In this document: piece after piece, positions 12,021-48,234 of the stretch
Layout: every line of letters begins with the position of its first letter
Position numbering within the stretch: the stretch's first letter is position 1
From: Isoetes taiwanensis
Taxonomy: Eukaryota > Streptophyta > Lycopodiopsida > Isoetales > Isoetaceae
Assembly: GCA_021234155.1 (NCBI GenBank)
Contig: JAJEKV010000021.1
Coordinates: forward strand, 12,523,760-12,587,759
Direction of reading: 5' to 3'
Length of the DNA: 64,000 nt
Made by a program: the position numbers and the translations under genes
The notes under the pieces: generated by a model
Told to the model about the DNA's origin: nothing
The model's database searches: none
Seen by the model: the letters and a program-made list of their open reading frames with translations, nothing else

Positions 12021-12717
12021 TTACTGAGTTTTTTTTACAGAATCCGGATTAATGCCAAGCTCTGCGGCCATTCTCTCGGCGTGTTCTCTTGTGATGGCAA
12101 TGGTCTGAGACAAATCCATTTTAAAATATCCTATAATGTCTGGAATCTCAACATCTATTGCCACAGATAAGTTTTGAACACGATCCGAGCCTTTTGTATC
12201 TAGCAATTCATCTTCCAAATCTGTAGGGAACTCTATGCCGGCGACAAGTTTCATTTTCTTCCTTCCATGGCGAGCTTCTGGGTTTTCAGTATCAGAGATG
12301 GCATCAGACGTACCCTTGTTAAGAGAGCATCCGGGTTATCTACAGTAAGGCACTATCAAATTTCTTGTTAAGAACTTCGAGCTTTTCGAAGATAGGCTCA
12401 AGAGCAGCTGAGGCCTTTTTCGTCTTTTCTAGCAATGCCCGGGTTTCTTGTAGCCTCTGTTCGAACCCCTTTTCATCTAACTTATCCAGGATCTCTTCCA
12501 TTTTACTAAGGTCCATCTCCTGAGTTATTTTAATGTCCGGCATGTCTTCCTCTTTGCACGTAGGCCTTGCCATTTTCTCTAATGTCTCGAAGAAAGATCT
12601 TAAGAATCTGCACACCTTATCGTCATATTCAAAGGCAACGCTATGTTTTCCGTACAGCAGAACCATCCTAGAAGTTGTCCCAGCTGAGAAGAAATCAAGA
12701 ACACAACCGTCGTCAGA
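12021..12717 (-). pseudogene. Methyltransferase-like gene, 3' part, cut by LTR element
   Basis: Reading the minus strand from the insertion site at 12,717, the frame gives VLDFFSAGTTSR followed by VAFEYDDKVCRFL. This resembles motif I and the following acidic strand of N4-C/N6-A DNA methyltransferases (typically DPFxGSGTT...E.D). A charged, probably helical stretch follows and ends in a stop at 12,340. After a frame change, a second open stretch (about 12,300-12,021) encodes KMKLVAGIEFPTDLEDELL and ends with a stop. The upstream half lies at 25,805-26,503, beyond the retrotransposon. The family assignment rests on one motif; a transposon-borne gene is possible. It is interrupted by the 13-kb insertion and by stops, so it is a pseudogene. 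Confidence 0.45.
12713..12717. repeat. Target-site duplication TCAGA (left copy)
   Basis: TCAGA directly abuts the outer end of the LTR at 12,718 and is repeated at 25,805-25,809 next to the other LTR. A 5-bp duplication is what Ty3/gypsy integrases make. Confidence 0.95.
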
Positions 12718-14318
12718 TGTGACGCTCCCTGCTAAATATACGGCACTCGGCCGTACACTCGGCAGGAAATCCCCCATCTGGTCCTTCAACCGCACGGGCC
12801 CTCCGTCTATCCCGCACTCTGAGATGATCGTAGTGCGGGAATGGGACACGAAGGTGTCTTGCGTGCCCTTCCCCTATGGGCTTCTATCACAACGGAAGCA
12901 CAAACATCATCAGAACTAGCAATACAATACAATATACTACCTCGAAGGGTAGCTCAGCCACATATCCATAGGTGCAAAGAACATAATCATATGCCATAAA
13001 ACATGAGAGCTTCTACCCGTGGCTCTGACACATAAGAAAGTCGACTGACTGGATAGGCCTCAAGATAGAGCAGACCGAGTCATAACAATGGCGGGGCTGG
13101 CATAAGATAATGGCTAGGGTTGAGATCAGGCTCTGGGCTGACTCTAACCTTTCGGATACGCAATCCCATGGCATCACCCATCGGGACTACTCCAGGTTGC
13201 ATCTCCCTGGTCCGTCGAGGTAGGAAGGGTTGCATCTCCCCTTCCCGGGGTCTAGAGGCTCTACGGGCGGCTAGAGAATCGTGGCGACACACGATTCGTA
13301 CCCGACTGAACCCCCCAAAACAAGAGCCAAGCTGACACTTGCAACTCTTGAGAGGCAGGGCGACACCATCGCCCCAGGAGGTGTCGGACCCATGCTCGGC
13401 CCACACGAAGTGACCGACCATAAGCCTAGCTCACTATGGGATCCCCCGTAGCCCCCACTCGGCAGGGATCCTCCCTCCATCTTGCCTCTAGCCCCGTTGT
13501 GTAGTGCTGAGTCACATCATAGCTTCCATAGCCCGGTGGGTTCCTATGCACAGGCCGCATATAAATAGGAACTAAGGGATATACACTAGGAGCATACTAC
13601 ATATGGCCCTGGGTCTCTACCCCCCTTCCCAATACAAGAGGAGCAACATGATCAACCAACATCACATACATTATATCATGATAAATATCATAAGAACATC
13701 TTAACCTAATCATACCTATCTAACTTACAGTTAGGGTTCCTTGATTAGGGTTCAAGATGTTCAACAAGGGTTCTAGGATGGCTCTACTCTAGACACGAAA
13801 TACTAACTCATCTGGAGTGCTAACTTCCAGATGAACTAACATGAACTCCACTCCACCTACCTGCTCCAGAAGCGCTTCCTCCCATTCCTAGCGTCTCCAT
13901 GCTCCTTGACGTGGGTCGAAGGCTTGCTCCCTCTACGATCATGCACACCTTCCAGGGGCTGCTGCTCCAGGCTAGGCTATGATGAACGATGCTCGAAACG
14001 GGGTTTCGGGTACGTAGATGAGAGTTCAGGTGCTAGGGTCAGGAAAAAGGGTCTAGGGTTAGGGTTTGAGCCAATATAGGTGTGGGTCCACATGGGATGC
14101 CACGTGGCACCAATAGAATGAGGCCGTGTGGCGGTTGCCCAATAGGATAAGGCCATGTGGAAATGGGCCTTATCCTAAGGTTATCTAAGTTAATAAATTA
14201 ACTTAGATGTGCACCCCTTGCCACTTTCTAAGGCATATAAGGCTACATAGGTAGACTTGTATGGTGACGGGTCCAGGAATATACATATTTATAGCATATA
14301 TTCCCCTAGAACGTCACA
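12718..14318 (-). repeat. 3' LTR of element 1
   Basis: A 1,601-bp direct repeat of 24,172-25,804. On the + strand it begins TGTGACGCTCC and ends AACGTCACA. It holds the conserved block around 13,610-13,635 shared with the other LTRs of the window, and a palindrome (arms GGAATATA/TATATTCC) near its 14,3xx end. Open frames inside it (for example 13,080-13,480) are mirrored in the other LTR and are not genes. Confidence 0.97.
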
Positions 14319-14334
14319 TTCTCCCCCCCTTAGG
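14319..14334 (-). other. Polypurine tract (PPT) of element 1
   Basis: The minus strand reads TAAGGGGGGGAGAA immediately before the 3' LTR, the expected plus-strand primer for reverse transcription. Confidence 0.9.
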
Positions 14335-14335
14335 A

Positions 14336-14355
14336 CAATGCTGTCCTCAGCATTG
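14336..14355 (-). other. Stem-loop next to the PPT
   Basis: CAATGCTG-TCCT-CAGCATTG gives a perfect 8-bp stem with a 4-nt loop. Elements 2 and 3 have a related stem at the equivalent place (29,467-29,484 and 63,388-63,405) with changed base pairs and loop TCCG. Confidence 0.7.
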
Positions 14356-15119
14356 CGCTAAGGTGACGAGCTTACCCTATGCCTGCAAAACAACACATGA
14401 ACATACAGTTTAATTCAATTTAAACGATCAACTTCCTATTAAAGAGTTAAATGTCAAAATTTAGGCTATATTTGTATTTAGCCTTAACAAGGTTATTTCT
14501 TATAATAATTCAAAACATTACTATAAGAGTTATTAGGGTTCATAATCTAAATTATGGTTCCCCCATCTTCTCGTAATGCCCCCCACCTCGATGCTCACTT
14601 CTCACTTGCCTGCACAAGGAGCACATTACGTTAGTTTAATTAATAAATTTGTGGTTTTAGGGGACCACCCCCCTTACCAATACCTTGCACTCGATCATGG
14701 CCTTTTCGGATTTGAGCTTAAGGACCATTTAAGATGATCCCATCATTGCCCATGATCAAGTGCTACCTTGTACTCGGTTACCCGGTGCCGAGTACCCCTA
14801 GTGCATCATGCCCCAAGGGTTTTAAGCTAGGGAACGTCTCACGATCCGATCACTTTGACCTTCACCATGACCCCCCTATGGCCAGGTGTGCGACCCCCGC
14901 ATCGTGGCATAGGGAGCATCCGACTGATGTCCCATCATCGCACACCATGCCTTACTTCTCTCTCTCGCATGACCCTATTGGTCATGTGCACCTCTTGGTG
15001 CACGTTGGCCTAGAGAATGCCTTAAAGGCGTATCCCATCATCGCCCACACGTTCCAAGATTCTGGCACATGTGCTCTACTAACTAGAATACATGAGCCAG
15101 ACTTAAGGCTAACTAAAAG
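14356..15119. other. 3' untranslated interior of element 1
   Basis: About 760 bp between the chromodomain stop and the PPT region, without a supported gene. The 129-aa frame at 14,734-15,123 (+) is antisense to the element and has no recognisable domain. Confidence 0.6.
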
Positions 15120-15578
15120 CTAACCTTCTGGCAAGTCGGGGTCGACCAAGTTGGAGACGACTCGCCCATCAAACTCCTTCATAAACTCTGGGTATTGCTT
15201 CTCCAAATCTTGCTTCAATACCCATGTTGCGTCTTCCACGGGCAAGTGCTTCCATTTGACCAAATACTGGAGGAACTGGGACCTCCTAGTCTTCTTAAAT
15301 GACTTATCACGAAGTAGTTCAGGCACAATTTCAACTTGCTCTTCTGTCATTTCCAACAAAGTTGGAGTATCCAAGACCTCATCAGGGTTAGGATTGTGCC
15401 TTTTCAATAAACTTACGTGGAAAACCTTGTGAACCTTGAGATGGGCCGGAAGATCCAACTTGTAGGCTTGGGAGCCCACTCTCTCCAAAATCTTGAACGG
15501 ACCAGCCCACCTAGGGGCAAGCTTCATGCAACTCCCAATCTGAAGCTTTGCTTGCTTAACCTTGATCTTCAACCACAC
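15120..15578 (-). CDS. Integrase C-terminus with chromodomain (element 1)
   Basis: The 152-aa frame begins in the integrase C-terminal SH3-like region: CMKLAPRWAGPFKILERVG and VFHVSLLKRH, the standard Ty3/gypsy blocks. It ends in a chromodomain at residues about 87-135 (FLQYLVKWKHLPVEDATWV, then LEKQYPEF). Chromodomains on integrase direct insertion toward chromatin carrying particular histone H3 marks in chromoviruses. This is relevant because the same element encodes an H3-like protein. It is in a different frame from the integrase core ending at 15,752, so a frameshift separates them. Confidence 0.9.
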   Translation of the reverse strand: MWLKIKVKQAKLQIGSCMKLAPRWAGPFKILERVGSQAYKLDLPAHLKVHKVFHVSLLKRHNPNPDEVLDTPTLLEMTEEQVEIVPELLRDKSFKKTRRSQFLQYLVKWKHLPVEDATWVLKQDLEKQYPEFMKEFDGRVVSNLVDPDLPEG

Positions 15579-15751
15579 GCTATCGCCTACCTTGAACTCT
15601 CTTACGCTTCTGTGCCTGTCGGCTACACTCTTCTACCGACTTCTTGCTGCTAGGAGGTACCCCCTTACTTCTTCCACCAACTGCTGCATATCTCCTAGCA
15701 TCTGCTGGGATACTTCAACCTTAGACACAGGATTGTGCCAAGTATCCGGGG

Positions 15752-16477
15752 TTAGGCACTGGTCCCGTAATTAATCATGAAAGGAGACGACTCCTGCTTC
15801 GTATTATTGTAGGCGAATTCCACCAAGTGGATGAACTCATCCCACTTGGACTGCTTATTCCACACGTAGCTTCTAAGCATGTCTTCAATAATTCGATTCG
15901 TGCGCTCCGTCTGACCATCTGTCTGCGGATGATAAGCCGTGCTCATGGAGAGCTTCGTCTGAATGGTGCTAAAGAGGTCCTGCCAAAAGGCACTCATAAA
16001 CTTAGAGTCCCTGTCCGATATTATCTCCCGAGGCATACCATGGAGTCTAAAAATCTCCCTTACAAAAAGCTTGGCAGTATCTAATGCTGTGTCCGTAGTT
16101 TTGCAAGGCACAAAGTGCGCCATCTTAGATAATTTGTCTACGACAACCATTAATGCATCCTTGCCTCGAAGAGTTCTAGAAAGTCCTGTAATAAAATCCA
16201 TGCTTATGACCTCCCACTTAGCATTTGGCACCCCCAATGGCTCTAAGGCACCTGGAATTCGAAGTTGCTCCGCTTTCGTCTGCTGACACAACTGGCATTC
16301 CCGAATATATCTGGCTATCTGCTTCTTCATTCCCGGCCAGAAATAGCTACTCCGAATCTTGAAGTAGGTCTTCATGAACCCTGCATGCCCTGCTATTGGG
16401 CTGTTGTGTGTGTCATGAAGAATTAACTTCCTTATACCTGACGATTCGGGCACACACAACTTGTCCTTATGGTACAC
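15752..16477 (-). CDS. Integrase core (element 1 pol)
   Basis: The 241-aa frame contains the HHCC zinc-binding module (His at residues 24 and 31; Cys at 61 and 64, CQLC). The catalytic triad is Asp94 in SMDFITGL, Asp155 in IISDRDSKF and Glu191 in GQTERTNRI. The 35-residue gap between the last two fits D,D(35)E integrases. It would cut the target and join element ends with a 5-bp stagger, consistent with the TCAGA duplication. Frameshifts at both ends separate it from RNase H and from the chromodomain, so this copy cannot make a continuous Pol. Confidence 0.95.
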   Translation of the reverse strand: MYHKDKLCVPESSGIRKLILHDTHNSPIAGHAGFMKTYFKIRSSYFWPGMKKQIARYIRECQLCQQTKAEQLRIPGALEPLGVPNAKWEVISMDFITGLSRTLRGKDALMVVVDKLSKMAHFVPCKTTDTALDTAKLFVREIFRLHGMPREIISDRDSKFMSAFWQDLFSTIQTKLSMSTAYHPQTDGQTERTNRIIEDMLRSYVWNKQSKWDEFIHLVEFAYNNTKQESSPFMINYGTSA

Positions 16478-17037
16478 AAGTTGCCTTCCTTCCTATAATG
16501 CTTGAAGGCTTCTCGTTCCTTATCTGTTCTAGCCTCCCTAGAGAGGCTTGCCCATACCTCCTTGAAATCACCATCAGATGGTAATGTCTCCTCAATCTTC
16601 TTGCCATACCCACTCGAAAGAGTTGATATAGCATTACAATGTATTCTCGTATCAAGGGGTTTCCTAGAGAGGGCGTCAGCCACCACATTCAACTTACCCC
16701 GCTTATAAGCAATCTCAAAATCATACTCCTCAAGGAATTCCATCCACCTCCTTTGCCTTAGATTAAGAAGTGGTTGGGTAAAGATGTATTGGAGGCTCTG
16801 GTGATCAGTATCTAACTGAAATTTCCTCCCGAGCAAATAGTGCCTCCAAATACGAAGAGCTCTCACAATAGCTAGAAGTTCCTGATCATGGGTTGGATAG
16901 CGCTGTTCGGTGTCGTTCAACTTCTTGGAATCATAGGCTACTACTCTTCCTTCTTGCATAAGGACTCCACCTGTTGCTATCTTACTTGCATCTGTTGCTA
17001 CTATCTTGTCCTTATCTGGATCTGGCAGAACTAACAC
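16432..17037 (-). CDS. RNase H domain (element 1 pol)
   Basis: The 201-aa frame carries the Ty3-type RNase H: ATDAS (first catalytic Asp), VVAYDSKKLNDTEQRY, HDQELLAIVRAL (catalytic Glu), DTDHQSLQYI and VVADALSRKP. It overlaps the integrase frame by 46 bases in another register. Upstream, between RT and this frame (17,038-17,140), the coding register changes and an in-frame TAA occurs. Its role is to degrade the RNA strand after minus-strand synthesis. Confidence 0.93.
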   Translation of the reverse strand: MLVLPDPDKDKIVATDASKIATGGVLMQEGRVVAYDSKKLNDTEQRYPTHDQELLAIVRALRIWRHYLLGRKFQLDTDHQSLQYIFTQPLLNLRQRRWMEFLEEYDFEIAYKRGKLNVVADALSRKPLDTRIHCNAISTLSSGYGKKIEETLPSDGDFKEVWASLSREARTDKEREAFKHYRKEGNLCTIRTSCVCPNRQV

Positions 17038-17140
17038 TGGTGCTGTTGTTAAGGCTTCTTTAAGCTTTTAAAATGAAGCTTGAACATTTTCTAGCCAATG
17101 TGTTCTCCAATCTTTCACCTTAACACTCTTAGGAGATCCA

Positions 17141-18142
17141 TCAAGGGGATGCCCACTTAGCGAAGTCCTTCACGAACTTCCTGTAGTATCCCGCCAGACC
17201 AAGGAAACTCCTTACTTCTGCCACGTTCTTGGGAGCTGGCCAATCAACTACTGCTTCAATCTTAGATGGATCTGTAGAAATCCCTTCAGCTGTTACCACA
17301 TGTCCCAAGTATTCCACTCGACCTGTTGCAAAGTGGCACTTGGAGAGCTTCCCATACAACCGATGACGTATCAATTTCTCCAACACTTTCCTCAAATGCT
17401 GACAATGATCTTCAAGGGACTTGCTGTAGACTAGAATGTCGTCAAAGAAAACAATGACAAACTCATCCAAGAACTCTCTGAAGATGTCGTTCATGAGGCG
17501 CATAAAAGTTGCTGGAGCATTCGATAAGCCAAAGGGCATTACTGTAAACTCAAAGTGGCCATACCGCGTTCTAAAGGCGGTCTTATGGATATCCTCTTCT
17601 TTTATTCTTATCTGATGGTACCCTGACCTTAAGTCGATCTTAGAGAATACTTTTGCTCCTTGGAGCTGGTCCATCAAATCATCTGCCCTTGGCAAGGCAT
17701 ACTTATTCTTTATCGTCTGCTTGTTGAGCTGACGATAGTCTATGCACATTCTTAGGCTGTCATCTTTCTTCTTCACGAAGAGTATGGGTGCTCCAAAAGG
17801 AGACACACTTGCTCCAATAAATCCAAGCTCAAGCAATTCCTGGAGCTGCTTCTTGAGCTCTATCAACTCCGGGGTGCTCATTCTGTATGGTGCCTTGCTG
17901 GTAGGCTTAGCATCTGGAGCTAATGTGATCTCACATTCTAAACCTCTATAAGGTGGTAGCTGCTGGATTTCATCCGGGAATACATCCTTGAATTCTGAAA
18001 TGAGCCTTGCTACTGGCTTGGGCAACTGATTCCCCTTTTGGTCACTTCCATCCTGTTTATTTGGCTCAATTGCCTCTATCCTCAAAATATAGTCCACCTT
18101 ATTTCTTTCTATACTTTTCCTAGCTGCTTCAAAGAAATACAC
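17141..18142 (-). CDS. Reverse transcriptase (element 1 pol)
   Basis: The 333-aa frame shows the Ty3/gypsy RT order: [37 protein letters not shown] (motif A, first Asp), [12 protein letters not shown] (motif B), FFDDILVYS (residues 232-240, the catalytic YxDD equivalent), [15 protein letters not shown] and [12 protein letters not shown]. It ends early at 17,141 where the SPL block is expected, because of a frameshift. It has no ATG of its own: it opens with GTG inside the gag-protease frame, overlapping it by 34 bases in the -1 register. Ribosomal frameshifting or a mutation in a once continuous gag-pol are both possible; I see no canonical slippery heptamer. Confidence 0.95.
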
Positions 18143-19839
18143 TGCATGGGAGAAGCTGCCTTCTTACCTTTCACTATGAATTTGATGCCGTCCGGTGCAG
18201 TCATGGAGATCTCGTTACGGTCGCAGTCGATCATGGCTTTCGCTAGCTTTAGCAACTCCATTCCTACTATAAGGTCATACCTTCCAATTTCCATGACCTC
18301 TGCCTCCATAGGCCACTTACTTCCACTAAGGTCTATGTCAAATGTGATCCTCCTCCCCTTAGTGTGCCGGATGGCACCGTTTGCCATGCTAACTGGCCTT
18401 GGCTTAGACTTCAAGACTTTATTCTTCATTAGGGCAGCCAGCCTAGGAGATGCAAAGTTATGAGAGCTACCTGTATCTATCAACACTAGATATGGACTGC
18501 TATCTATGATCCCCTCAGCCGCAATGACTGTGGACTGATTTTCAATATCGTCTGACTCAATGTTTGCACATATATGGCACTCACCCTCTATGAAGTCCTG
18601 GCCGTCCTGCTGGTTGTCGTCTTCGTCTGCTTCTGTTGGTGAATCCCAATCCCCAAGCTCTGCCAAAGCTACCTGCATGACGAATGGACAATCATGTGTT
18701 CGGTGCCCTGGCTGGAAGCACCTAAAACATAGCTTCTTCTCGATACACTCCTGTCTCTTCTCTTTCCGCAGACTGTCTAAAAGATGCTTTAGGGCACTGC
18801 CCCCTGATCCACTTTGCGTTTTACGATCCCCAAAGGTCTTACCCTGAGCTCTTCCTTGCTGCTGGCCTGCTGATGGTGTAGTTGTTGATTGTTTACTCTG
18901 GTACTGCCCTTGGTACTGACCTGCTGATTTACCTTTGAAGGCTGACTGTTTCTCCCCTGGGTTTTGTGGTGCTTCTTCCAAACTTATGGCTTTATCCTTG
19001 ACTTCTGCCACTGACTTTGGGTTGATTGCCCAGACTAGCCTTTTGATATTGCTGTTCAATCCTTCAATGTAGGTTTCAACCGCTTGTCTTTCCGAAACTC
19101 CGGGGACATGGAGCCTGAGCCGCATGAATTCCTCTGTGTACTTTGCTACTGACAAGGTACCCTGGTTCAATCTGTAGAATTGCTGGATCTGCCTGCTGGT
19201 ATGTGATCTTGGCACATAATGCTTGCGAAAGGCCTTGCTAAAGGTCTTGAATCTGCAACTGTTCCTTTTAAGCTTATTGGACTTTGCGTAGCCTTTCCAC
19301 CAAATTCTAGCTGCTCCTATTAAGTTTGCTGTAGCAACCTTCCCTATATCCTTGTCCTTCATGCCATAAGAGTTGCCAAACTCCTCCATCTCGTCAAGCC
19401 AGGCTTCTGCCTCCATACCTGACCTGTCCTTCCCTGAGAACTGACCCAACTTCCTAGTCTTCCACACATTGCTCATAGCACTGTCAACTTTCTTCTGATA
19501 GTCATCTGCCTTCCTTGCCCTGGCTCTTACCTGTGAAGTATCGGACTCACTCTCTGAGCTAGAACTGTCTTGGCTGTCCGAAGTGTCTGATGAACTGGAG
19601 CTAGGTGGTGTTGGGGTCCTTCTGTTTCTCCTTTTCCTCTTTTTGTCTCTGACATTTCCCTGATTGTCTTGCCCCTCTGGCTGTGGACCTTCCTCAATGC
19701 CTTGCTGAGGTAGTGGTAGAGGAGGTGGTGGTGCAGGTGCATATTCTTGGGCATTCATCAACGGGGTGGCCCAGTGAATCAGCTGATGCATCTGATTCCT
19801 CATCTGGGTGAGCCTTGCGTTGATTGATTCCACCGTCAT
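18109..19839 (-). CDS. gag: Gag-protease polyprotein (element 1)
   Basis: An intact 576-aa frame. Residues 38-45 are proline-rich. Residues 64-102 are a basic then Ser/Asp/Glu-rich SR-like stretch. Residues about 130-290 are the retrotransposon gag domain ([30 protein letters not shown]). Residues 371-384 form a CCHC zinc knuckle ([14 protein letters not shown]). Residues 451-540 form an aspartic protease with DTGSS at 455-459 and a late [10 protein letters not shown] flap/second-strand block. Gag would form the particle, the knuckle would bind RNA and the protease would process the polyprotein. A Met at 19,839 is a natural start. It is the best preserved gene of the element. Confidence 0.95.
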
Positions 19840-20160
19840 TTCCTCGTTGTTGTCATCTTCTTCACGTCCAAATAGGTTTCTGGGTACCCACTGGTGATGT
19901 CGGCCCTGGCCTTGAGAACCTGAGCCGGTGTTCCTTGCTGCAAGGATTAATCATCAATGCTTGTTATTTAGGTTACACATCAATCATATCCATTTACAAT
20001 TATTGTTAGGTACAAAAGAAATCATGTGAAAATTCCACTTACAAGTCAAGATCATAATAAGACATTAATATATATAGAAATACATTTCATGAATTACATG
20101 ATAATAGCTGAAGAGAGAATTTTCAATACAATTTAATTAATCTACAAGGCAATTTTTCCA

Positions 20161-21399
20161 TCATCGATGCCCCCCCATGGACTTGAAGAAGTTCTTAACA
20201 TTCTTCAATCGTAGCCCTTTGCCGACGTTCTGCAAGATCCTTGCAGCCGATCCCCCTTCAAGTGCTCTTGCCATCTGAGGTGCAGGAAGTTCGGGTGCCG
20301 TCGCCGCCACTACTGACAAGTGTGCGTCCCTGAGATGGCCCCTGGCGAAGTCGAGACAATGGAGAACTACAGATCTCTTGAAGAGGATAACATGATCTAC
20401 AACATAATCTATTTTGGCATGCTGTCTGAAGCCTGAGAGTGCTATAAGGAGCGCCACCGACTCTTCCCCTCTTGGGCTGAACTCCTTATGGAAAACTATC
20501 ATCTGCCCTTGACTAAGGGCCGGAAGATAGTATCTGAGTGCCTTGCCCTTCAATGAGCCCCCGGTTCCCGTGCCTTTCCTCTGAGCTGCTTCGCCGAAGA
20601 CATCTAATGCGAAGAGATCTTCGTGGTCCCTCCACATTGTTGTTGCATTCTCCAAGTTGATGCTGCTAGATGCTTCGCGCATGCTCCTGGAGCGCACTGA
20701 TCTGCTGGAGCTTGGGCCTCTTCCCGGCTTGTACAACCTGCTTTGAATCTGCTGGAATTCTTCTTCTGGAATGATGGGTTCCTGATGCTGATACATCTGC
20801 CTTATCTGTTGATAAGCTTGAATATCCGACATTGTTTCGCCGGCGTAGGAGTGTCGCTCCGCTACTTCCCTTGGGATTTCCTGGTAGGAGTAGTCGATGA
20901 AGTCACTGCCCTGCTCTTGTGCAATTAAGCCTAAGAGCTCGTCGATCCTGAGACCTTCTTCTTGGCAATAAGAAAGGTTGAGGACGTCGTTGGCCAGTAT
21001 GTACTCCTCGCCGACGATGATGACTGGAGTCAGGGCTGTGATACCAATTGGCGGTACGAAATCTCGCCTTAATATGCCTTCTTGCCGGGCTATTCGCCTC
21101 TCCATCCTCCTTGCTTCTCTCATCTCCCAACTCGGGTTCTCCTCCCCTTGCTGCTCGTAGTCTTGCTCAATCTGCAGCGTCGGTGTTCCTGAGGTGGAGC
21201 CATAGTATTCGTACTCCGAAGACTCGATCTCATGGATGCTGATCTGCTCCCTCTGGGTGTCGAGAGGTGCCAAATCTAAAGGTTGAATTGACGGCTCCCC
21301 TGGCTTATTGATTGCCTTATACTGCATGAACAAGGCTAAGGCTGCAGGAGCTGAGAGATATCTATGCCTATGATGCTTGCAGGTCATGTAATCTGGCAT
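20161..21399 (-). CDS. Unknown 412-aa ORF between H3-like gene and gag
   Basis: A long intact frame on the coding strand of the element, so it is likely element-encoded. It is acidic and Glu/Gln-rich in its first half (EIESSEYEYYGS, EEENPSWEMREARR-type segments). Basic/Ser-rich residues follow about 230-250 (RSVRSRSMREASSS). The C-terminal part is more hydrophobic (YYLPALSQGQMIVFHKEF, YVVDHVILFKRSVVLHCL) and ends in a basic tail (LRLKNVKNFFKSMGGHR). I recognise no family: it is not gag, protease, RT or envelope-like, and has no clear membrane segment. The small frame at 21,468-21,707, in another register, is probably its broken N-terminal part. Confidence 0.7.
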   Translation of the reverse strand: MPDYMTCKHHRHRYLSAPAALALFMQYKAINKPGEPSIQPLDLAPLDTQREQISIHEIESSEYEYYGSTSGTPTLQIEQDYEQQGEENPSWEMREARRMERRIARQEGILRRDFVPPIGITALTPVIIVGEEYILANDVLNLSYCQEEGLRIDELLGLIAQEQGSDFIDYSYQEIPREVAERHSYAGETMSDIQAYQQIRQMYQHQEPIIPEEEFQQIQSRLYKPGRGPSSSRSVRSRSMREASSSINLENATTMWRDHEDLFALDVFGEAAQRKGTGTGGSLKGKALRYYLPALSQGQMIVFHKEFSPRGEESVALLIALSGFRQHAKIDYVVDHVILFKRSVVLHCLDFARGHLRDAHLSVVAATAPELPAPQMARALEGGSAARILQNVGKGLRLKNVKNFFKSMGGHR

Positions 21400-21467
21400 A
21401 TTTCTGGTCCTGTCCCACAGCCTACTCTTGCCCCTGGATCCTCCCCCTACAGTTTGGGTAAGCGAAT

Positions 21468-21707
21468 CTAGGGATACCCATTTGGTGGCAAGCTAACTTC
21501 CCAGGGTAGAATCTGCTGGTCATACTGGCAAATGATATCAGTATAGAAGGGAGTTCTGGTCAATGTTGCATGAAGATCGAAGAGGTGGTCGAAGACATGG
21601 AAGGCTTGGTCAGCAGGAAGATCACGGATATGATTGGCAGCATCATACCATTTGACGAAGCTAGAAGGCGCCATGGAGCAGAGATGGATGTAGAAAATGG
21701 TTTGCAA
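21468..21707 (-). pseudogene. Probable N-terminal part of the unknown element ORF
   Basis: A 79-aa frame in which MAPSSFVKWYDAANHIRDL is the most likely start. It ends LPWEVSLPPNGYP just before a frame change into the 412-aa ORF that begins at 21,399. No domain is recognised. The sequence between the two frames contains stops in each register, so at least one indel is required to join them. Confidence 0.5.
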
Positions 21708-21976
21708 AGATCAATGGGAGACTGAAAAATCGCCTAGGATGCTAAGAGCAATTCCGAGGAAGGAAAAATGACAAATGGAGCCCCCTTTTATAGACTAAGG
21801 TTGTCTCGGGTTCCGTGCACAAGGGTTCTTGATGGGAAAAACTTTTGTTCAAAGGCTATGGATGTCCAAATGAGCTACCATGAAGTGCAAATCTAAGCAA
21901 AACAAGGCAAGAAATACTACATGGCAGGTTGTTGGGGTCAAAATTGGTTAAATTTGGCAAAAGACGGCCAAACCAG

Positions 21977-22243
21977 GTTGGTTCGCGCCAAACGCCTCTG
22001 CGTTGCGAACGCAAGTGGTTTTCGCGCGGTCCGACCCGATTTGGGTCATTTTTGGTTCAGATGAGGATTTCTAGGAATTTTGAGATGCTAACATGACTAT
22101 TTGGCTCGATTCTGATCTAACTAGCAACTTTTCTCATGCAAATTGGACATGGAATGGTGTAAATTCGGCCAAATCGGGTTGGTTCGCGCCAAACGCCTCC
22201 GCGTTGCGAACGCAGGTGGCTTTCGCGCGGTCCGACCCGATTT
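21977..22243. repeat. Two CpG-rich units, 202 bp apart (element 1)
   Basis: Two copies of a roughly 65-bp unit start at about 21,977 and 22,179. They are nearly identical and rich in CpG in an otherwise AT-rich leader. Each contains the inverted repeat GCGTT-GCG-AACGC plus TTCGCG motifs on both sides. They lie directly downstream of the H3-like gene. Confidence 0.85.
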
Positions 22244-22475
22244 CGCGAATTTTTGACTTAATTTACAAAATTTTTTTTCTAAAATTATCTAATACTTGGC
22301 CTGCTATGGGTGTTTTAATCATATTAGAAAAAAAAACTATACTACAATTTGAACTATTAACTAGATTTTCATGCAAAAAAAATTGAATCAATTTATAAGG
22401 ACAAGATTTATGTATTTATAGGGAAAAACAGTCTAATTACATTAACTTTTAATAACTGTACAAAATTTTGGAGAC

Positions 22476-23601
22476 TCATGGGTACTCCTTGCGGATCCTC
22501 CGCGCCAAATGGAGGTCCTTGGGCATCACGGTCACCCTTTTGGCGTGGATTGCGCACATGTTCCCCTCCTCAAAAAGTTGGGTCAGCTCCGCCTCGGCTG
22601 CCACTTGCAGGACCCGTGTCGTCAACGACGTTACCCTGTAGTCGGTGACGAACTCCTGCATGACTTCCCGCATCAGGCGCTCGAAAGGAGCCTTCCTGAT
22701 CAGGAGATTAGTGCACTGCTGAAAGTGCCTAATCTCCCGAAAAACACGGGCGTGCCGAGAATTAGGCCCATGATGGACCTTCTTCGGCTTTTCAGGACGT
22801 GGAGGTGGCGTTCAGCTGGTTCTTCTTCGGCCGGCCGCCTTTGACGTAGCGCTCCACGTTCTGCTTGCAATACCAATCGTTGTACCTCGTCCAGCGACGA
22901 AGGTACTCCTGGTATGCCTTCAAGCGGCGCTTGAATTTGCGGTCCTCACGGAGCACGAATGCCCGCTCGCCCACCTTCTGCTTCTTAACTACCTTCGGTG
23001 GCTTGGGCCACTTCGGGTAGGGTGGGCGTGCGTTGGGGTCTGAAGACTCCCCAACGACTTCCTCTCCCTCCTCGGCTTCCTCCTCGTCATCACCTCCTCC
23101 TTCTTCCTCTTCCTCCTTGTGCGGGGGAGGCTCCTCGATCACGACGGTCCCTCGGGGCCTATCGTTCCTCCTCTTCGTTCTTCGCTCCTTCTCCCTAAGT
23201 TCCCGCTCCCTCTCCCTCTTCTTTCTTGCCGCCGCTTCTTCTGGCCACTCCGCCAACTTGTTCTTGCACTTCTTCTTTGCTGACGAAGGGCCCGCCTCCT
23301 GGATCTGGTGCTGCGGCTGCTCTTGGTCGTCCTCCTGCTCTTCTTCTCGGCCGGAGAGATCGCCGACGTGTACTGTCTGGTCGGTCTGCTGGGACTGAGC
23401 CGATGAAGAGCTACTGCTGGAGCTAGGGCTGCCCTCCTCTGAAGGCTGGAAGGTCTCGTCTGATGACGACTGCGCTTCCTCCCCTGGTTTCGGCCGAAGG
23501 TGTGGCGGGATCTGCTTAGTGTGACGACCTGCTGTTGCTTGCGCCATCGAAAGTGTAGGTCTCTCACCAAACTTCCTGGCTGTCTGCTTGGTGCGTGCCA
23601 T
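22476..23601 (-). pseudogene. Retrotransposon-encoded histone H3-like protein (one frameshift)
   Basis: Frame 23,601-22,792 (269 aa) starts MARTKQTARK, identical to the H3 tail through K9, including R2, K4, R8 and K9. Ser10 is replaced by Phe. A long linker follows: Ser-rich (about 58-70), acidic, then KKKRKR-type basic clusters, another acidic run (about 160-185) and a basic segment ending [10 protein letters not shown]. In the next register the H3 fold follows (22,790-22,476): REIRHFQ (alphaN), [17 protein letters not shown] (end of alphaN, loop, alpha1), an alpha2 segment with canonical loop-1 length, [14 protein letters not shown] (loop 2) and LARRIR. It ends KEYP and stop. A +1 shift near 22,800 separates tail-linker from fold. 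A normal H3 is about 136 aa; this would be about 375. It lies about 570 bp inside the PBS, on the coding strand of the element. A host H3 gene is excluded by the linker and position. Confidence 0.9.
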
Positions 23602-24147
23602 ATTTAACGGTCTAAGAAATGGATGACGTAAGGCTGAGCAAGAGAGATAAGGTGGAGGAAAGAGTTGGGGGGAAATGAGGTGGCAAAGATATTTAAAAGG
23701 AGGGTCCCCTGGGAATATTCTCCTACCATTAATAGGCCTACTTATTAGCCCCCCTTATTAATTACTCCAATATAACCTAATTATCAGTATATATTTAATT
23801 TTTAGTATGTGTACCTAATTTCGTATTATACTTTTCAAATTTCCTAATAGTTTAGAGTGTTAATTATAAATTTGCACCATTTTTCACTCAGGTCTCAGAT
23901 TGGCATGATTCTTCGACCTATTTTAGGTGAAATTTGATGCAGATGCATAATTTTCATTCCAAATTTACTAGAAGGTGAATTTGACTCATTCTTTCTTCGT
24001 CTAACACTTAACCTATTTTCGGGCCTGCTACCTAGGAGAAAAATTTTCCCCTATTTTCGAGGTTTGGTGGTGGAAATTTTTCATTTCTCACCCTATTAGG
24101 CCTGTTAGACTACTTCATGGTTATGGTCAGTGCTAGTTCTTGGTCAA

Positions 24148-24170
24148 CCAAGAACATGGCTCTGATACCA
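24148..24170 (-). other. Primer-binding site (initiator tRNA-Met), element 1
   Basis: The minus strand reads TGGTATCAGAGCCATG one base inside the 5' LTR. The first 12 bases match the complement of the 3' end of plant initiator tRNA-Met. Confidence 0.95.
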
Positions 24171-24171
24171 T

Positions 24172-25804
24172 TGTGACGCTCCCTGCTAAATATACGGCAC
24201 TCGGCCGTATACTCGGCAGGAAATCCCCCATCCGGTCCTTCAACCGCACGGGCCCTCCGTCTATCCCGCACTCTGGGATGATCGTAGTGCGGGGAGGGGA
24301 CACGAAGGTGTCTTGCGTGCCCTTCCCCTATGGGCTCCTATCACAGCGGAAGCACAAACATCGTCAGAACTAGCAATACAATACAACACACTACCTCGAT
24401 GGGTAGTTCAGCCACATATCCATAGGTGCAAAGAACATAATCATATGCAATAAAACATGAGAGCTTCTACCCGTGGCTCCGATACATAAGGAAGACTGAC
24501 TGGATAGGCCTCAAGATAGAGCAGACCGAGTCATAACAATGGCGGCGCGGGCATAAGATAATGGCTAGGGTTGACCACTCCATCCGCCCCTCCTGTGCAT
24601 ACTTTGCAGATGGGCTAGATCAGGCTCTGGCATGACTCTAACCTTCCGGATACGCAATCCCATGGCATCACACATCGGGACTACTCCAGGTTGCATCTCC
24701 CTGGTCCGTCGAGGTAGGAAGGGTTGCATCTCCCCTTCCCGGGGTCTAGAGGCTCCACGGGCGGCTAGAGAATCGTGGCGACACACGATTCGTACCCGAC
24801 TGACCCCCTCAAAACAAGAGCCAAGCTGACACTTGCAACTCTTGAGAGGCAGGGCGACACCATCGCCCTAGGAGGTGTCGGACCCATGCTCGGCCCACAC
24901 GAAGTGACCGACCATAAGCCTAGCTCACTATGGGATCCCCCGTAGCCCCCACTCGGCAGGGATCCTCCCTCCATCTTGCCTCTAGCCCCGTTGTGTAGTG
25001 CTGAGTCACATCATAGCTTCCATAGCCCGGTGGGTTCCTATGCACAGGCCGCATATAAATAGGAACTAAGGGATCTACACTAGGAGCATACTACATATGG
25101 CCCTGGGTCTCTACCCCCCCTTCCCAATACAAGAGAAGCAACATGATCAACCAACATCACATACATCATATCATGATAAATATCATAAGAACATCTTAAC
25201 CTAATCATACCTATCTAACTTACAGTTAGGGTTCCTTGATTAGAGTTCAAGATGTTCAACAAGGGTTCTAGGATGGCTCTACTCTAGACACGAAATACTA
25301 ACTCATCTGGAGTGCTAACTTCCAAATGAACTAACATGAACTCCACTCCACCTACCTGCTCCAGAAGCGCTTCCTCCCATTCATGGCGTCTCCATGCTCC
25401 TTGACGTGGGTCGAAGGCTTGCTCCCTCTACGATCATGCATACCTTCGAGGGGCAGGCTAGGCTATGACGAACGATGCTCGAAACGGGGTTTCGGGCACG
25501 TAGATGAGAGTTCAGGTGCTAGGGTCAGAAAAAAGGGTCTAGGGTTAGGGTTTGAGCCAATATAGGTGTGGGTCCACATGGGATGCCACGTGGCACCAAT
25601 AGAATGAGGCCGTGTGGCGGATGCCCAATAGGATAAGGCCATGTGGAAATGGGCCTTATCCTAAGGTTATCTAAGTTAATCAATTAACTTAGATGTGCAC
25701 CCCTTGCCACTTTCTAAGGCATACAAGGCTACATAGGTAGACTTGTATGGTGACGGGTCCAGGAATATACGTATTTATAGCATATATTCCCCTGGAACGT
25801 CACA
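24172..25804 (-). repeat. 5' LTR of element 1
   Basis: 1,633 bp, TGTGACG...CGTCACA. It is nearly the same as the 3' LTR except for an extra segment around 24,575-24,617 that resembles the LTR of element 2 at 47,114-47,152. It has palindromes at both ends: TATACGGC/GCCGTATA (24,191-24,211) and GGAATATA/TATATTCC (25,762-25,790). Confidence 0.97.
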
Positions 25805-25809
25805 TCAGA
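25805..25809. repeat. Target-site duplication TCAGA (right copy)
   Basis: Matches 12,713-12,717 exactly. Confidence 0.95.
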
Positions 25810-26509: not shown

Positions 26510-28401
26510 ATCGCAATCCTATTTACCTGAAATTACTTAAAACGGACATCTTTAAGATAAGATGCCTCAAAGAAACGTGGTCGCGATCTTTGTGAGAACA
26601 CCTCGTGAAGAAATGCTCTCGCGATCCTCGAGACAAGTATATGCTCTATTTCAATGCTATAAATCTCTATGGGAATCACGACCATGATTTCCACAACTAA
26701 TCTAATCCAAAAATGAATACTTGCAGAGATGAACAAGGTCGCGGTGATGATCTTGTTCAGCTATTTACACCCAAAAAAAAAGACTAATACGGTCTAAGAC
26801 TACCAATGTTAGAGAAAAGCGCGGAAAATACCTTCTTTGAGGGCGATAGATCGAGACATGATTGCGCAAGACTTTTCGAAGGCGCTAATTTTTTCGAAGG
26901 TGCAGAATTTCCGAAGATGAAGAATTCCGGGAAAATGGATCCTTAAGTAAACGCCTGGCTCATTAATACCTTGCAATTAATTGCGACAGGAACCTTAAGT
27001 AGACGCCTGCCTCATTAATACCATGCAATGAATTGCGACGGGAGCATTTATTACGGACAGCACCTGGCATTAATTGCCCGTCATAATGATGGGTTGGTGC
27101 ACTAAAAACTCACGGCCCCTGAAAATTCGGTGGGAAGCAAAAGAATATTCTAGAATGTATCAAAGATTGATGTTGACACCCAAGAATGACGTACGTATTG
27201 AAGCATGCCAAATGTACGACGAGTTGGAAATGTGGATGCTGGAGGAACAGAACCGTAATGCCCACGACAGTTGAGTTTGTTTGAGACAGAGGCAGGGTTA
27301 ATGCAGACCTTTAAGGCGCAAAGGAAAGGACATGAATTTAAAATTTGAAAATCAGATTGCCCGCCTAAGCGCCTGGCTCATTCATTCCAAACAAAATACA
27401 GTCATTCAATTGAGGTGTTAAGGAGAATTCAATTGAGGCACTGGGGAGGTGATTGCTGGCGCTCACCAAATTCTCGAGGTTCTAGGACGTAATACAGATT
27501 GTGCAACTATTTGAGGCGCATTTGCAGGCAAGATGTGCTGTTTAACTGGCAATTCAATATGTATGTACCGATTTTGTTCCATTGTTCCGTTGCATGCTCC
27601 AAATTTACCTTCCAATGTTCTTTAGCATGGTCTTTTGCATGCTTTTGACATCTCTATTTCCCTTTTCATCCATTGTTTTGTTTCATGCCTGAAATGCACT
27701 ATCCTATGTACCCTAAAGAGCACACACCACACAGGATTTGTAGAAAACGTCATATTTTATATATAGCCAGATGACTTGCATGGCATTTTAACTATTTTTA
27801 GCAAATCCAAATGTTAAGTGCGCTAGCCTGCAACATGACTCATGTTGGGTGACGTGAGTTCTCAATAGGATCACGGTGGCATTTCTATGTAGCAATCACC
27901 GGGTACTCATCTCGCTCTATCTTCGCGTATTTTTCCACTAGAAATTTTGATTACTTACCAAAACCAGGTGCTAGGTGCGGAACCCTGAGGCTTGCAAGGG
28001 TTTTAGGGACCAGACTACTCAATCAGTTTGAGATCGTGTTCCTGGTCAGCACTTACCAGGTATTTGCATAGCATTATCACTGTAGAATGACATTGAATGC
28101 TCCCGATCATGGCAACGGCGATTTCTCATAGCAGTCGTTGCTGTTTTTATTTTAGGATGGCTGAATTGAAGTCCATTCTTCTCAATGGAATGAAGGTTGG
28201 CGAGGGTAGACTACAGGGTGAAAGCATGCTAGGGTGTACCATCTAAAGTTCTTTTTAGGGAGTGCAAAACTACCCAAAAAAGTACCCAGCACTGGGTACT
28301 AAGAACTTGCATAAATGCCTCAATAAACAATAAGTTTGAGAGTTGGTTCATTCATTTTAGTCTCTAATAGTATTGTTATCCTCTACTACTATAGATTGCA
28401 G
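26510..28401. other. Intergenic region without recognised genes
   Basis: AT-rich, with scattered TCGCGATC-type motifs (26,577-26,590, 26,618-26,627) and a 52-bp tandem duplication at 26,941-27,044. Open frames at 26,533-26,736 (-) and 27,074-27,274 (+) have no recognisable domain. Confidence 0.5.
26941..27044. repeat. 52-bp tandem duplication
   Basis: Two adjacent copies begin CCTTAAGTAAACGCC (26,941) and CCTTAAGTAGACGCC (26,993). A partial third relative (CGCCTGGCTCATT) occurs near 27,370. Confidence 0.8.
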
Positions 28402-29448
28402 AGTAGGTTGAAGAGTGTTGGGACCTGACTGTAGCCTGCCGGATGCATAGCCAAAGGGGCTATTCCTGGGTTACATCTCCCCAGTTCCGATGGGGCAGGT
28501 AGGGATCACTCCCTCCAGAGATCTACATGCTGACTCAAGGTTACTAGAGGGCCACTGCCCTTATTCGACTTGAACCCAATGGAGAGTGACGCATCACCCC
28601 ACGGGTGTCGAGCCCATGCCTTACCCACACTCAGTGGCAAGCCATTAGACCTAGTCCACAGTGATCCCCGGTAGACTTTACACACAAGGGGGATCGTTCA
28701 AGAGTCAGAACACGAACCTCCTTATAAGCCAGTCTGGCCCCTTCACCCACAACCAGGTGTGATTCTTGTACACAGGCCGAATACTAGTAATGCACTAAAG
28801 GTACTAGCTAGGAGCATCAACTACTAGGCTGTAGGTCTCTACCCCCCTTCCCAATACAATGAGTCCACAGAGATCGTCCATACATCAGTATCATCACAGA
28901 ACTAAAGAATAATATCTAATCTATATAAAGGGTTCTATGTGGCTGCTATGGGCAATTCAATAGGCTAAACCTGCTAACTCTGTGCCCGGAAGGCGGATTA
29001 GGCTATTGAATTGACGAAATACCTGGTCCTTGGTTCGCTCCTCTTGCTCCGAATGCGTCCATGTCGCTGTCTTGCTTCGAGATACGGTCGGAAAGGAAAT
29101 TTGACGAGCTAGGGCGCTCAGGCAGATCTTGGGAGTCGGGATTGACTCTTGAGGCGCGCGAAACGGAGCTCGGAAGGTTCGTGGGCGAAAAAAGGGAAAG
29201 TTAGGGTTTGGTGGCCTTATGTAGGCTATCAGTTAGGGTTAGGGTTTCCATGACCCTTGGTATGCCCACTTAATGGTTAGAGGTCTAAAGTGCGCACATT
29301 GATAAATGTGTGCACACTTGCAAGTTGCCCCCTAGGGCGCTACTTGCTTGGCTATACGTTGGCATACACGTCAATCGGGATGGCGTGTACGCGTGACGAG
29401 GCAGTACAGTATACATCTTAGGACCGTATACTGTGCTGGAACGTCACA
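28402..29448 (-). repeat. Truncated 3' LTR of element 2
   Basis: 1,047 bp matching 47,146-48,232 closely. Differences are few, the largest being about 40 bases absent near 28,925. It ends AACGTCACA and is followed by a purine tract on the minus strand. The first ~430 bp of the LTR (as numbered on the + strand) are missing. Confidence 0.9.
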
Positions 29449-29501
29449 TTCTCCCCACCTTAAAATGATGATGTCCGCAGCATCAAGGTTCTCCCCACCT
29501 T
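29449..29501 (-). other. PPT, adjacent stem-loop and second PPT-like tract
   Basis: The minus strand reads TTAAGGTGGGGAGAA next to the LTR. The near-perfect stem GATGATG-TCCG-CAGCATC follows at 29,467-29,484, and a second AAGGTGGGGAGAA tract at about 29,489-29,501. The same three-part arrangement is present after the LTR at 63,369. Confidence 0.8.
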
Positions 29502-45744: not shown

Positions 45745-46539
45745 GTCTCACACATTGCGCCTAGATAAAAAATGGGAGTTCCATTTTTGCTCCTGGTGCG
45801 ACGTGTGAGACATTGACTCTAATTGGGTTAAACTTGTCCAATTTGGGTGATATGAGGGTCTAATCATGCTAGATTCATCGAGTAGGCAGAATTGACCCCT
45901 TACTTGGTCGATTTGGAGGTGTTTTGGTCTAGTTTAGGACTAGTTTAGGTATGAAGGTCTCACACGTTGCACCCAGATCGAAAATAAGAGTTTCATTTTT
46001 GCTCCTGGCACAACGTGTGAGACATCCTCTCAAATTGGTCTAAAATGTCTGTTTTGACTAAAACAAAAGCTGGAACTTACTAACTCAACTTAATTAAGTA
46101 AGATTACACACGTTACTTAGTCTAAAACTCTTTATATTAACAAAAATTTTCCATCATTTACAAAATTTTACTGTGGATCTCCCTTGATGTAGCTGGCAAG
46201 CTGCATGTCCTTCTTCATTAGTGTCACCCTCTTCGCATGAACTGTGCAGGCTGTCGAATCTTCAAAATGCTGCACTAGTTTTTGCTCTGTCGCTTCTTGA
46301 ACCTTGGTCTCCTGGTCTCGTTCTGCCCTCTCCTCTTCTTGTATCTCTCGCTCTATCTGCTCGTACACTTCTTGGGTCTAATATACAAATCTAACTAATT
46401 CTTACCTTAAAACTCGATCTAGCATGTTACCTTATTAAAATTCATCAAGTATTAAGGTGTTTATGGCTTAATGTCTCACATGTTACGCCCAGATCAAAAA
46501 TGGGAGTTTCATTTTTGCTCTTGGCGCGACGTGTGAGAC
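45745..46539. repeat. Three 67-bp inverted-repeat units (element 2 leader)
   Basis: Units at 45,745-45,811, 45,957-46,023 and 46,473-46,539 are all exactly 67 bp. Each has outer arms of the form GTCTCACACGTTGCGCC / GGCGCGACGTGTGAGAC around an A/T-rich centre. The first two are 212 bp apart; the third lies on the other side of the H3-like remnant. Confidence 0.9.
46168..46368 (-). pseudogene. Histone H3-like alpha2-alpha3 remnant (element 2)
   Basis: The 66-aa frame starts with a highly charged segment (YEQIEREIQEEERAERDQE). It then matches H3 from the second half of alpha2 to the end: QEATEQKLVQHFEDS, then TVHAKRVTLMKKDMQLA (loop 2 and alpha3), ending KGDPQ and stop. The H3 tail, alphaN and alpha1 are not found upstream toward the PBS, where only an inverted-repeat unit and AT-rich sequence lie. 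Position (about 350 bp inside the PBS) and orientation match the complete H3-like gene of element 1. Sequence divergence between the two shows that the gene was present before the two families separated, unless it was gained twice. Confidence 0.8.
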
Positions 46540-46689: not shown

Positions 46690-46714
46690 CTCCAAGAACA
46701 TTGCTCTGATGCCA
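46690..46714 (-). other. Primer-binding site, element 2
   Basis: The minus strand reads TGGCATCAGAGCAATG one base inside the LTR: the initiator tRNA-Met complement with one mismatch (TGGC instead of TGGT). Confidence 0.85.
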
Positions 46715-46715
46715 T

Positions 46716-48232
46716 TGTGACGTCCCCTACTCATATACGGTGCCCGCACCATATACAAACAGGAGTTCATCCCCCATACCAGCTCCATACTGATACAGGG
46801 CCCTCCACGTATCACTGCAACCTGGATGAGTTCCAGTGGGAAGAATGAAGGGGTCATTTACCCTGTCTTCCTCAGGGCCTACCTAGCTGCGGAAGCATAA
46901 ACATACATGTCAGTATACAACATCAACATCACATAACCATCTCGAAGGATGGCTCATCACATATCTGCATAGACAAAGATCAGTACATCACATCGGGGAT
47001 CCTACCCAAGGCTCAGACTCAAAGGAATGACTGACGGCTTGGGTCTCCAGAGTTCATTGCAGACAGAATTCATGGCAATGGATTTGGCTGGCATGAGAAC
47101 ATGACTTAGGGTGGTCCACTCCATCCGCCCCTCCTGTGCACACTTTGCAGAGTAGGTTGAAGAGTGTTGGGACCTGACTGTAGCCCGCCGGATGCATAGC
47201 CAGAGGGGCTATTCCTGGGTTACATCTCCCCAGTTCCGATGGGGCAGGTAGGGATCACTCCCTCCAGAGATCTACATGCTGACTCAAGGTGACTAGAGGG
47301 CCACTGCCCTTATTCGACTTGAACCCAATGGAGAGTGACGCATCACCCCACGGGGGTCGAGCCCATGCCTTACCCACACGCAGTGGCAAGCTATTAGACC
47401 TAGTCCACAGTGATCCCCGGTAGACTTTACACACCAGGGGGATCGTTCAAGAGTCAGAACACGAACCTCCTTATAAGCCAGTCTGGCCCCTTCACCCACA
47501 ACCAGGTGGGGTTCTTGTACACAGGCCGAATACTAGTAATGCACTAAAGGGACTAGCTAGGAGCATCAACTACTAGGCTGTAGGTCTCTACCCCCCTTCC
47601 CAATACAATGAGTCCACAGAGATCGTCCATACATCAGTATCATCACAGAACTAAAGAATAATATCTAATCTATATCATAGAAGTTATGTTCTTTAGTTAG
47701 GGCTCGCTATCTAGGGTTCTATGTGGCTGCTATGGGCAATTCAATAGGCTAAACCTGCTAACTCTGTGCCCCAAAGGCGGATTAGGCTATTGAATTGACG
47801 AAATACCTGGTCCTTGGTTCGCTCCTCTTGCTCCGAATGCGTCCATGTCGCTGTCTTGCTTCGAGGTGCGGTCGGAAAGGAAATTTGACGAGCTAGGGCG
47901 CTCAGGCAGATCTTGGGAGTTGGGATTGACTCTTGAGGCGCGCGAAACAGAGCTCAGAAGGTTCGTGGGCGAAAAAAGGGAAAGTTAGGGTTTGGTGGCC
48001 TTATGTAGGCTATCAGTTAGGGTTAGGGTTTCCATGACCCTTGGTATGCCCACTTAATAGTTAGAGGTCTAAAGTGCGCACATTGATAAATGTGTGCACA
48101 CTTGCAAGTTGCCCCCTAGGGCGCTACTTGCTTGGCTATACGTCGGCGTACACGTCAATCGGGATGGCGTGTACACATGACGAGGTAGTACAGTATACAT
48201 CTTAGGACCGTATACTGTGCTGGAACGTCACA
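46716..48232 (-). repeat. 5' LTR of element 2
   Basis: 1,517 bp, TGTGACG...CGTCACA. It shares with the LTRs of elements 1 and 3 the block around GGTCTCTACCCCCCTTCC and both termini, but differs strongly in between. Palindromes lie near both ends: TATACGGTGC/GCACCATATA (46,734-46,755) and CAGTATAC/GTATACTG (48,191-48,217). Confidence 0.93.
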
Positions 48233-48234
48233 TC

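Follow-up and report, generated by a model that had tools for sequence, protein, structure and literature searches.

Capture of histone H3 by a transposable element is already known from fungi, and the hAT DNA transposons concerned are the nearest precedent for an H3 gene borne by an LTR retrotransposon. The sections of two published accounts that were consulted describe H3L genes in such transposons of Dothideomycetes, namely in Pyrenophora tritici-repentis (PMC3538342) and in Pseudocercospora fijiensis and others (PMC6710886). In Pyrenophora, H3L lies beside a full-length transposase gene and is represented by ESTs (PMC3538342); the P. fijiensis copies are inactivated by RIP (PMC6710886). 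The elements described here share with these the carriage and multiplication of an H3-like gene by a mobile element, but are LTR retrotransposons rather than fungal DNA transposons and lack a hAT transposase and terminal inverted repeats. The same sections of the fungal accounts contain neither a tail insertion of about 300 aa nor a comparison of selection with that on the element enzymes (PMC3538342, PMC6710886). Plant LTR retrotransposons are also known to carry extra ORFs (aORFs), which, according to the main text of a review, lie more often between pol and the 3' LTR and are env-like or antisense (PMC7264820). Such aORFs are conserved among the copies of a lineage, and the same may be true of the H3 gene, which is present in the sampled copies, a sample itself drawn by H3; unlike the aORFs of that review, it stands between the primer binding site (PBS) and gag, and it is a histone.

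Three further systems invite comparison. Chromoviruses have the LTRs, the PBS, the gag-pro-RT-RH-IN order and the chromodomain after the integrase that are found here, but not the two extra ORFs before gag, an H3 ORF and a second ORF that we call orfX. Large DNA viruses encode histones, including fused core doublets. They too are selfish elements with a histone of their own, although their doublets differ from the single H3-type core with a tail insert found in this retroelement. Centromeric H3 (CenH3) and other H3 variants likewise place a changing N-terminus on a histone core, and the H3 fold described below has EIRHFQ..TNLLI in common with what we take to be the Arabidopsis CenH3 sequence; it differs in being encoded by a transposon and in lacking the longer CenH3 loop 1, as its alignment to canonical H3 is ungapped.

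Among the matches listed in full-text searches of the open-access literature, none described an H3 gene in an LTR element. The word 'histone' is absent from the main texts of the review of extra ORFs in plant LTR elements (PMC7264820) and of the genome papers of Isoetes taiwanensis (PMC8566536) and I. sinensis (PMC10541799), and 'histone H3' is absent from the consulted text of a survey of chromodomain elements in non-seed plants (PMC2864245).

A split H3 gene in a chromodomain element

The window, by which we mean the whole stretch of 64,000 nucleotides of I. taiwanensis DNA that was analysed, contains a chromodomain Ty3/gypsy element on its minus strand (12718-25804), flanked on both sides by the 5-bp target repeat TCAGA (Table 1). 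LTRs, target site duplication (TSD), PBS, gag-pol genes in the order PR-RT-RH-IN and a chromodomain are all present, so that the delimited LTR element with chromodomain described in an earlier note, which had been made from the sequence alone, is borne out, and the H3 ORF sits between the 5' LTR and gag. The PBS is presumably of the initiator-Met tRNA type. Divergence between the two LTRs amounts to a K2P distance of 0.0276 (1590 aligned columns with 29 transitions and 14 transversions). The ORF at the orfX position has no match above cut-off in a Pfam profile search, and the orfX of a sister element, L009, has no tblastn match within the window element at E 1e-8. A direct repeat of 95 bp, 88% identical, lies between this ORF and the H3 ORF (21960-22054 and 22161-22255).

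Table 1. Features of the window element and of the H3 remnant in a second element (window coordinates)
Feature	Position	Strand	Basis
3' LTR	12718..14318	-	TG...CA ends; TSD TCAGA at 12713-12717; LTR pair alignment
Polypurine tract adjoining 3' LTR	14319..14333	-	direct sequence inspection
Integrase C-terminus, Tf2-1-like SH3 domain and chromodomain	15123..15632	-	PF24626, 81 bits; PF00385 Chromo, 43.2 bits
Integrase zinc-binding and core domains	15755..16492	-	PF17921, 72.5 bits; PF00665, 41.9 bits
RNase H	16435..17067	-	PF17917, 120.2 bits
Reverse transcriptase	17144..18163	-	PF00078, 133.9 bits
Gag capsid and aspartic protease	18112..19950	-	PF03732, 62.8 bits; PF19259, 54.6 bits; PF08284, 37.4 bits
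ORF between H3 ORF and gag, at orfX position of sister families	20164..21492	-	no Pfam match over cut-off
H3 core fold, own frame, stop at 22476-22478	22476..22796	-	Pfam Histone; PDB H3 chains; ungapped 85-codon alignment
ORF with exact H3 start MARTKQTARK and charged linker	22792..23601	-	other frame than fold
PBS TGGTATCAGAGCC	24158..24170	-	one base after 5' LTR
5' LTR	24172..25804	-	TSD TCAGA at 25805-25809; LTR pair alignment
Decayed C-terminal half of H3 fold, second window element	46174..46374	-	tblastn E 2.6e-13

Read on the minus strand from 23601 to 22792, the window encodes MARTKQTARKFGERPTL..., an ORF of 269 aa (P0002) that keeps R2, K4, R8 and K9 of H3 exactly. Both the extent of the feature given in the earlier note (22476..23601) and its exact MARTKQTARK start are correct on direct reading of the minus strand. 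Ten residues of H3 at an ATG upstream of an H3 core on the same strand would hardly be a chance match. The charged, low-complexity linker that follows, put at about 250 aa in that note, measures about 260 aa, with 55 K+R and 50 D+E among the 269 residues of the ORF. The fold itself (22796-22476, minus strand) comprises 106 aa and a stop, in the next frame relative to tail and linker (P0003). That this is an H3 fold was confirmed by the HMM search which the note had proposed, with 99.7 bits against Pfam PF00125 (E 1.8e-28; cut-off 26.4); the fold thus lies far beyond a chance match, and the ORF P0001 scores 147.2 bits. The best PDB match of the window fold is a histone-domain chain (E 4.9e-30), with nucleosomal H3 chains close behind at about 5e-30, and the best 60 of the 176 matches are all H3 or histone-domain chains.

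Over 85 codons (query codons 13-97) the window core aligns with H3 without gaps, departing from it at K53 (H), K56 (Q), L65 (A), K79 (V), F84 (V), Q85 (T) and I119 (V); H3 positions R40 and R42 fall outside this alignment. An AlphaFold model of the window fold is poor (pLDDT 54), with helices roughly at the positions of the H3 helices. As tail and linker are in one frame and the fold in another, the window copy as it stands does not encode a single protein. The earlier claim that the element supplies its own H3 variant is supported for the wider family, in which one-frame ORFs under purifying selection are found.

H3 as the first gene of many elements

Chromodomain Ty3/gypsy elements of this genome carry a captured H3 as the first gene behind the PBS. 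A six-frame search of the assembly (1,658,258,908 bases in 1110 contigs) with PF00125 gave 8705 candidates, a loose first look rather than a gene count, and the best 150 were scored, all of them above the PF00125 cut-off. Fifteen of these start at profile position 2, in frames of 139-232 aa, and the eight that were retrieved (L001-L008) are canonical H3, 97-98% identical to the plant H3 query. These host genes read A31, Y41, E77, S or T87, and L90, which we take to be a mix of the residues that separate H3.1 from H3.3 in flowering plants. From the other 135 scored matches 44 were retrieved, the remaining 91 lying outside the sample. All 44 carry related cores, which fall into families A (29), B (8), C (3), D (2) and E (2), and every core stands behind a longer ORF or the remains of one. 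Open frames of at least 300 aa are seen in 38 of the 44, a sample drawn by H3 score and hence biased toward conserved cores. One copy (L030) has a stop codon within the H3 core, and in several others a stop further upstream interrupts the frame. In 21 ORFs a single open frame includes both a placed start and the H3 core.

The sequence downstream of the H3 ORF was followed in 20 stretches of about 10 kb (L009-L028) on 19 contigs, and at least one of gag, orfX and RT was found in each: a gag capsid of the L009 type in 18, orfX in 19 and RT in 13, the last count being affected by stretches that often end before or within RT. A PBS of the TGGTATCAGAGC type lies right behind an LTR end (...TCACAG or ...TCACAA), 1.6-1.8 kb before the H3 core, in 15 of the 20; it was not found in the other five. 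The gene order of these sister elements is LTR - PBS - H3 ORF - orfX - gag - pol. Their orfX, an ORF of about 300 aa between the H3 ORF and gag (L009:4993-5916, minus strand, and equivalents), travels with the H3 ORF and has no Pfam match. The window element is 65% identical to L009 in the capsid and 73% in the RT region, which makes it a distant cousin, and among the matches listed parts of its LTR are 73-80% identical to stretches from families A-D.

A second LTR element in the window is delimited by LTR pieces at 28396-29449 and 47145-48233 (K2P 0.023). It contains a decayed remnant of H3 just inside its 5' LTR (Table 1), with a PBS-like site at 46714 that has one mismatch, so that H3 sequence occurs in both two-LTR elements found within the window. 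A third LTR piece, 76% similar, lies at 61979-62747, and further pol fragments are present in the 9.9-kb right flank of the window (L050), in which no H3 match was found.

From its sequence, the element ORF reads as an H3 gene whose tail is split by an insertion. The layout of H3 start, long insertion and core is the same in the window copy and in its sister families, although the inserted sequence differs. The ORF begins with MARTKGTK in both copies of family E, MANTK in C, MPRFKLT (once MSRFKLT) in A and D, and METPK, METVK or MEEVK in B. Lysine is residue 4 in all 21 starts placed by script and, by eye, in four further starts that the script motif missed (L010, L041, L049 and L051); around K4, family B has lost the ARTK sequence. 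After the insert the H3 tail resumes as HP(S/T/G)TGGK(S/T) and similar, followed by the core. The K9 position was scored in 43 ORFs (44 examined, L030 set aside) and is P in 42 and S in one. None of ARKS, RKST and AARK occurs within 45 residues before the core in these 43 ORFs, so no K27 motif is found there. A K14-type lysine is present in 43 of 43, a count that equals the number of motifs found because the search pattern requires it. The exact tail of the window copy means that the K9 loss of families A-E is not universal. The proteins have a core histone fold with H3-specific sequence, and in place of a continuous ARTKQTARKS...ARKS tail they have one split by about 260-300 aa.

The insert of about 300 residues in families A-D has 30 invariant columns among nine ORFs. 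Searches of 5.8 billion proteins returned no relative of it, either at E 0.001 among 1015 candidates (residues 1-230 of P0001) or at E 0.01 among 4058 candidates (the nine-ORF alignment). Pfam likewise gave no credible match to the insert: five families appear up to E 1, the best at E 0.031, one of them matched by two of the nine members and the other four by one. A search with the whole P0001 ORF gave 4586 proteins among 7935 scored candidates; four that were examined proved to be gene models in which H3 is repeated or combined with pieces of other histones, and not relatives of the insert.

Within the core, the residues that we take to make DNA contacts or to form the H3-H3' bundle (R49, R52, R63, R69, R72, R83, K115, R116, V117, T118, C110, H113, D123, L126 and I130) are kept in nearly all of 40 element cores, and all 15 are kept in the window fold. 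Over a wider list of such residues, most are retained in the window fold, the exceptions being K53, K56, L65, F84, Q85 and I119.

Selection and descent

Purifying selection acts on the H3 gene of families A and B and on that of the few sampled copies from C, D and E. By the Nei-Gojobori method, the H3 core of family A (28 copies) has a median dS of 0.718 and dN of 0.028 (378 pairs, 8 saturated), and that of family B a median dS of 0.279 and dN of 0.005 (28 pairs); the eight host H3 genes give 0.794 and 0.018 (28 pairs, 6 saturated). These element copies come from the best-scoring H3 matches and have mostly long open frames, which lowers core dN. The values for gag, RT and the insert, which were not scored for in the sampling, nevertheless agree with the H3-core result, and lucky neutral copies would hardly yield a core that differs by about 40% at synonymous and about 3% at nonsynonymous sites. 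Pairs from the smaller families agree, with dN 0 at dS 0.69 (C), dN 0.005 at dS 0.16 (D) and dN 0 at dS about 0.3 (E). In comparisons between families, most pairs other than A-D are saturated at synonymous sites, and median pN is 0.045-0.125.

In the 13 family-A stretches, the H3 core (13 copies, 78 pairs) has a median dN/dS of 0.047, as against 0.045 for the capsid (11 copies) and 0.045 for the RT/integrase piece (8 copies); the family-A core is constrained as strongly as capsid and RT. The median for orfX is 0.103 (12 copies). Along 14 family-A ORFs of at least 390 aa, the region preceding the core gives a dN/dS of 0.113 over its first 55% and 0.173 over the remainder, as against 0.032 for the core, and the corresponding values for five family-B ORFs are 0.162, 0.118 and 0.015. 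Compared with family C, the window fold shows differences of 0.34, 0.19 and 0.57 at the first, second and third codon positions, which points to past constraint of a less tight kind. The earlier note had let its claim depend on other copies with the ORF and on their evolution being other than neutral: families A and B supply both, as do C, D and E with two to three copies each.

Families A-E have a derived state in common, alanine at position 107 in 44 of 44, along with changes at 86 and 105 relative to the eight host genes. They form one clade in the best tree, apart from host H3 and CenH3, with support of 75/98 (not starred), or 97/97 when family E is left out. The window fold is a long branch, which the free tree places with CenH3 at weak support (65/70); the AU test rejects neither a grouping with families A-E (p-AU 0.31) nor one with host H3 (p-AU 0.22).

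Different parts of the elements have different histories. The two family-C stretches (L027 and L028) differ from family A by a pS of 0.46 in gag and 0.43 in RT, and A copies differ among themselves by 0.46 and 0.48; between C and A, however, pS is 0.80 in the H3 core and 0.81 in orfX. Being near in gag and RT and far in H3 and orfX, they imply that a 5' module of H3 ORF and orfX was exchanged between gag-pol backbones. The breakpoint lies between orfX and gag (L027 and L028 versus L009-L023).

Possible roles of an element-made H3

Transposon silencing in plants depends largely on methylation of H3K9 and of DNA, and methylation of K9 and K27 provides the marks that underlie transposon and Polycomb silencing. 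Our preferred reading, to which we give a probability of about 0.4, is that the element-made H3 builds variant nucleosomes refractory to silencing. The ORF1 protein would be translated from element RNA, its conserved core would pair with host H4, and the resulting nucleosome could be placed on the DNA of the element, whether new cDNA or inserted copies, or beyond it. With the lysines gone, the tail of families A-E would be unable to take H3K9 or H3K27 methylation, K4 and the K14-type lysine remaining; the chromatin of the element might for this reason be kept expressible and plant silencing be opposed. The inserted domain may give specificity, for example by binding Gag, integrase or a chaperone. 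Kept contact and bundle residues together with lost K9 and K27 appear to fit a nucleosomal, silencing-refractory H3 better than a pure mimic of the tail, although tail mimicry may also play a part, given the exact ARTKQTARK of the window copy and the ARTK with which family E begins. The variant-nucleosome mechanism gains nothing in itself from the exchange of the H3-orfX module. More tentatively, a whole clade of LTR retrotransposons may build its own chromatin from an H3 that keeps K4 and K14, has shed K9 and K27 and carries an orphan domain in its tail, with H3 and orfX moving between gag-pol backbones as an exchangeable cassette against silencing, part of an arms race between element and host.

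The same conserved contact surfaces could serve a chromatin tether, in which the core enters host nucleosomes (new, H3.3-like or centromeric) and the insert recruits a Gag/integrase complex, so that the element marks its own landing sites. The chromodomain on the integrase of the window element would suit such a role, and an orphan insert conserved between families A-D could be a partner-binding module, but the exchange of H3-orfX against gag-pol argues against tight co-evolution of ORF1 with Gag or integrase and the loss of K9 and K27 is left unexplained; we regard the tether as doubtful. A decoy or dominant negative would weaken silencing outside nucleosomes by titrating H4, chaperones or, in the window lineage and family E, the readers and writers of the H3 tail. 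The exact tail of the window copy, MARTKGTK in two family-E copies and the constant K4 are what such a decoy would show; near-perfect DNA-contact residues are not needed for it, however, and in families A-C the start of the tail has decayed while the core has not, which makes it unlikely. That the H3 ORF is the first gene of the element and retains its DNA-contact residues would also agree with a packaging histone, one that, in the manner of virus-encoded histones, compacts or shields cDNA within the particle or the pre-integration complex for delivery in chromatin form. Host H4 or another partner would be needed in the particle for this distinctly unlikely reading.

Two explanations would deprive the H3 gene of any role. 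A captured host H3 might be a passenger without function, as described for most transposon gene captures, and the broken frame of the window copy and the decayed H3 of the second element look like it. Against this stand a core dN/dS equal to that of capsid and RT, synonymous sites largely saturated between families, and five families with derived residues in common and many ORFs open, which leave a passenger very improbable overall: it is rejected for families A and B by dN/dS and is unlikely for C, D and E, with two to three copies each, and the window lineage may be an exception. An assembly join or contamination, in favour of which nothing was found, has a negligible chance of accounting for the gene, since element genes follow the H3 ORF in every one of the long stretches, across 19 contigs, and the window element is bounded by LTRs and a TSD; an assembly artefact is rejected on these grounds.

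If the preferred reading of a silencing-refractory element H3 is true, a histone stripped of its silencing lysines and preserved like a polymerase would represent a direct attack on the silencing code, and the families would amount to a test, set by nature, of which residues of H3 are important. Numerous H3 genes in a genome can be other than those of the host, with consequences in such plants for histone annotation, histone proteomics and ChIP.
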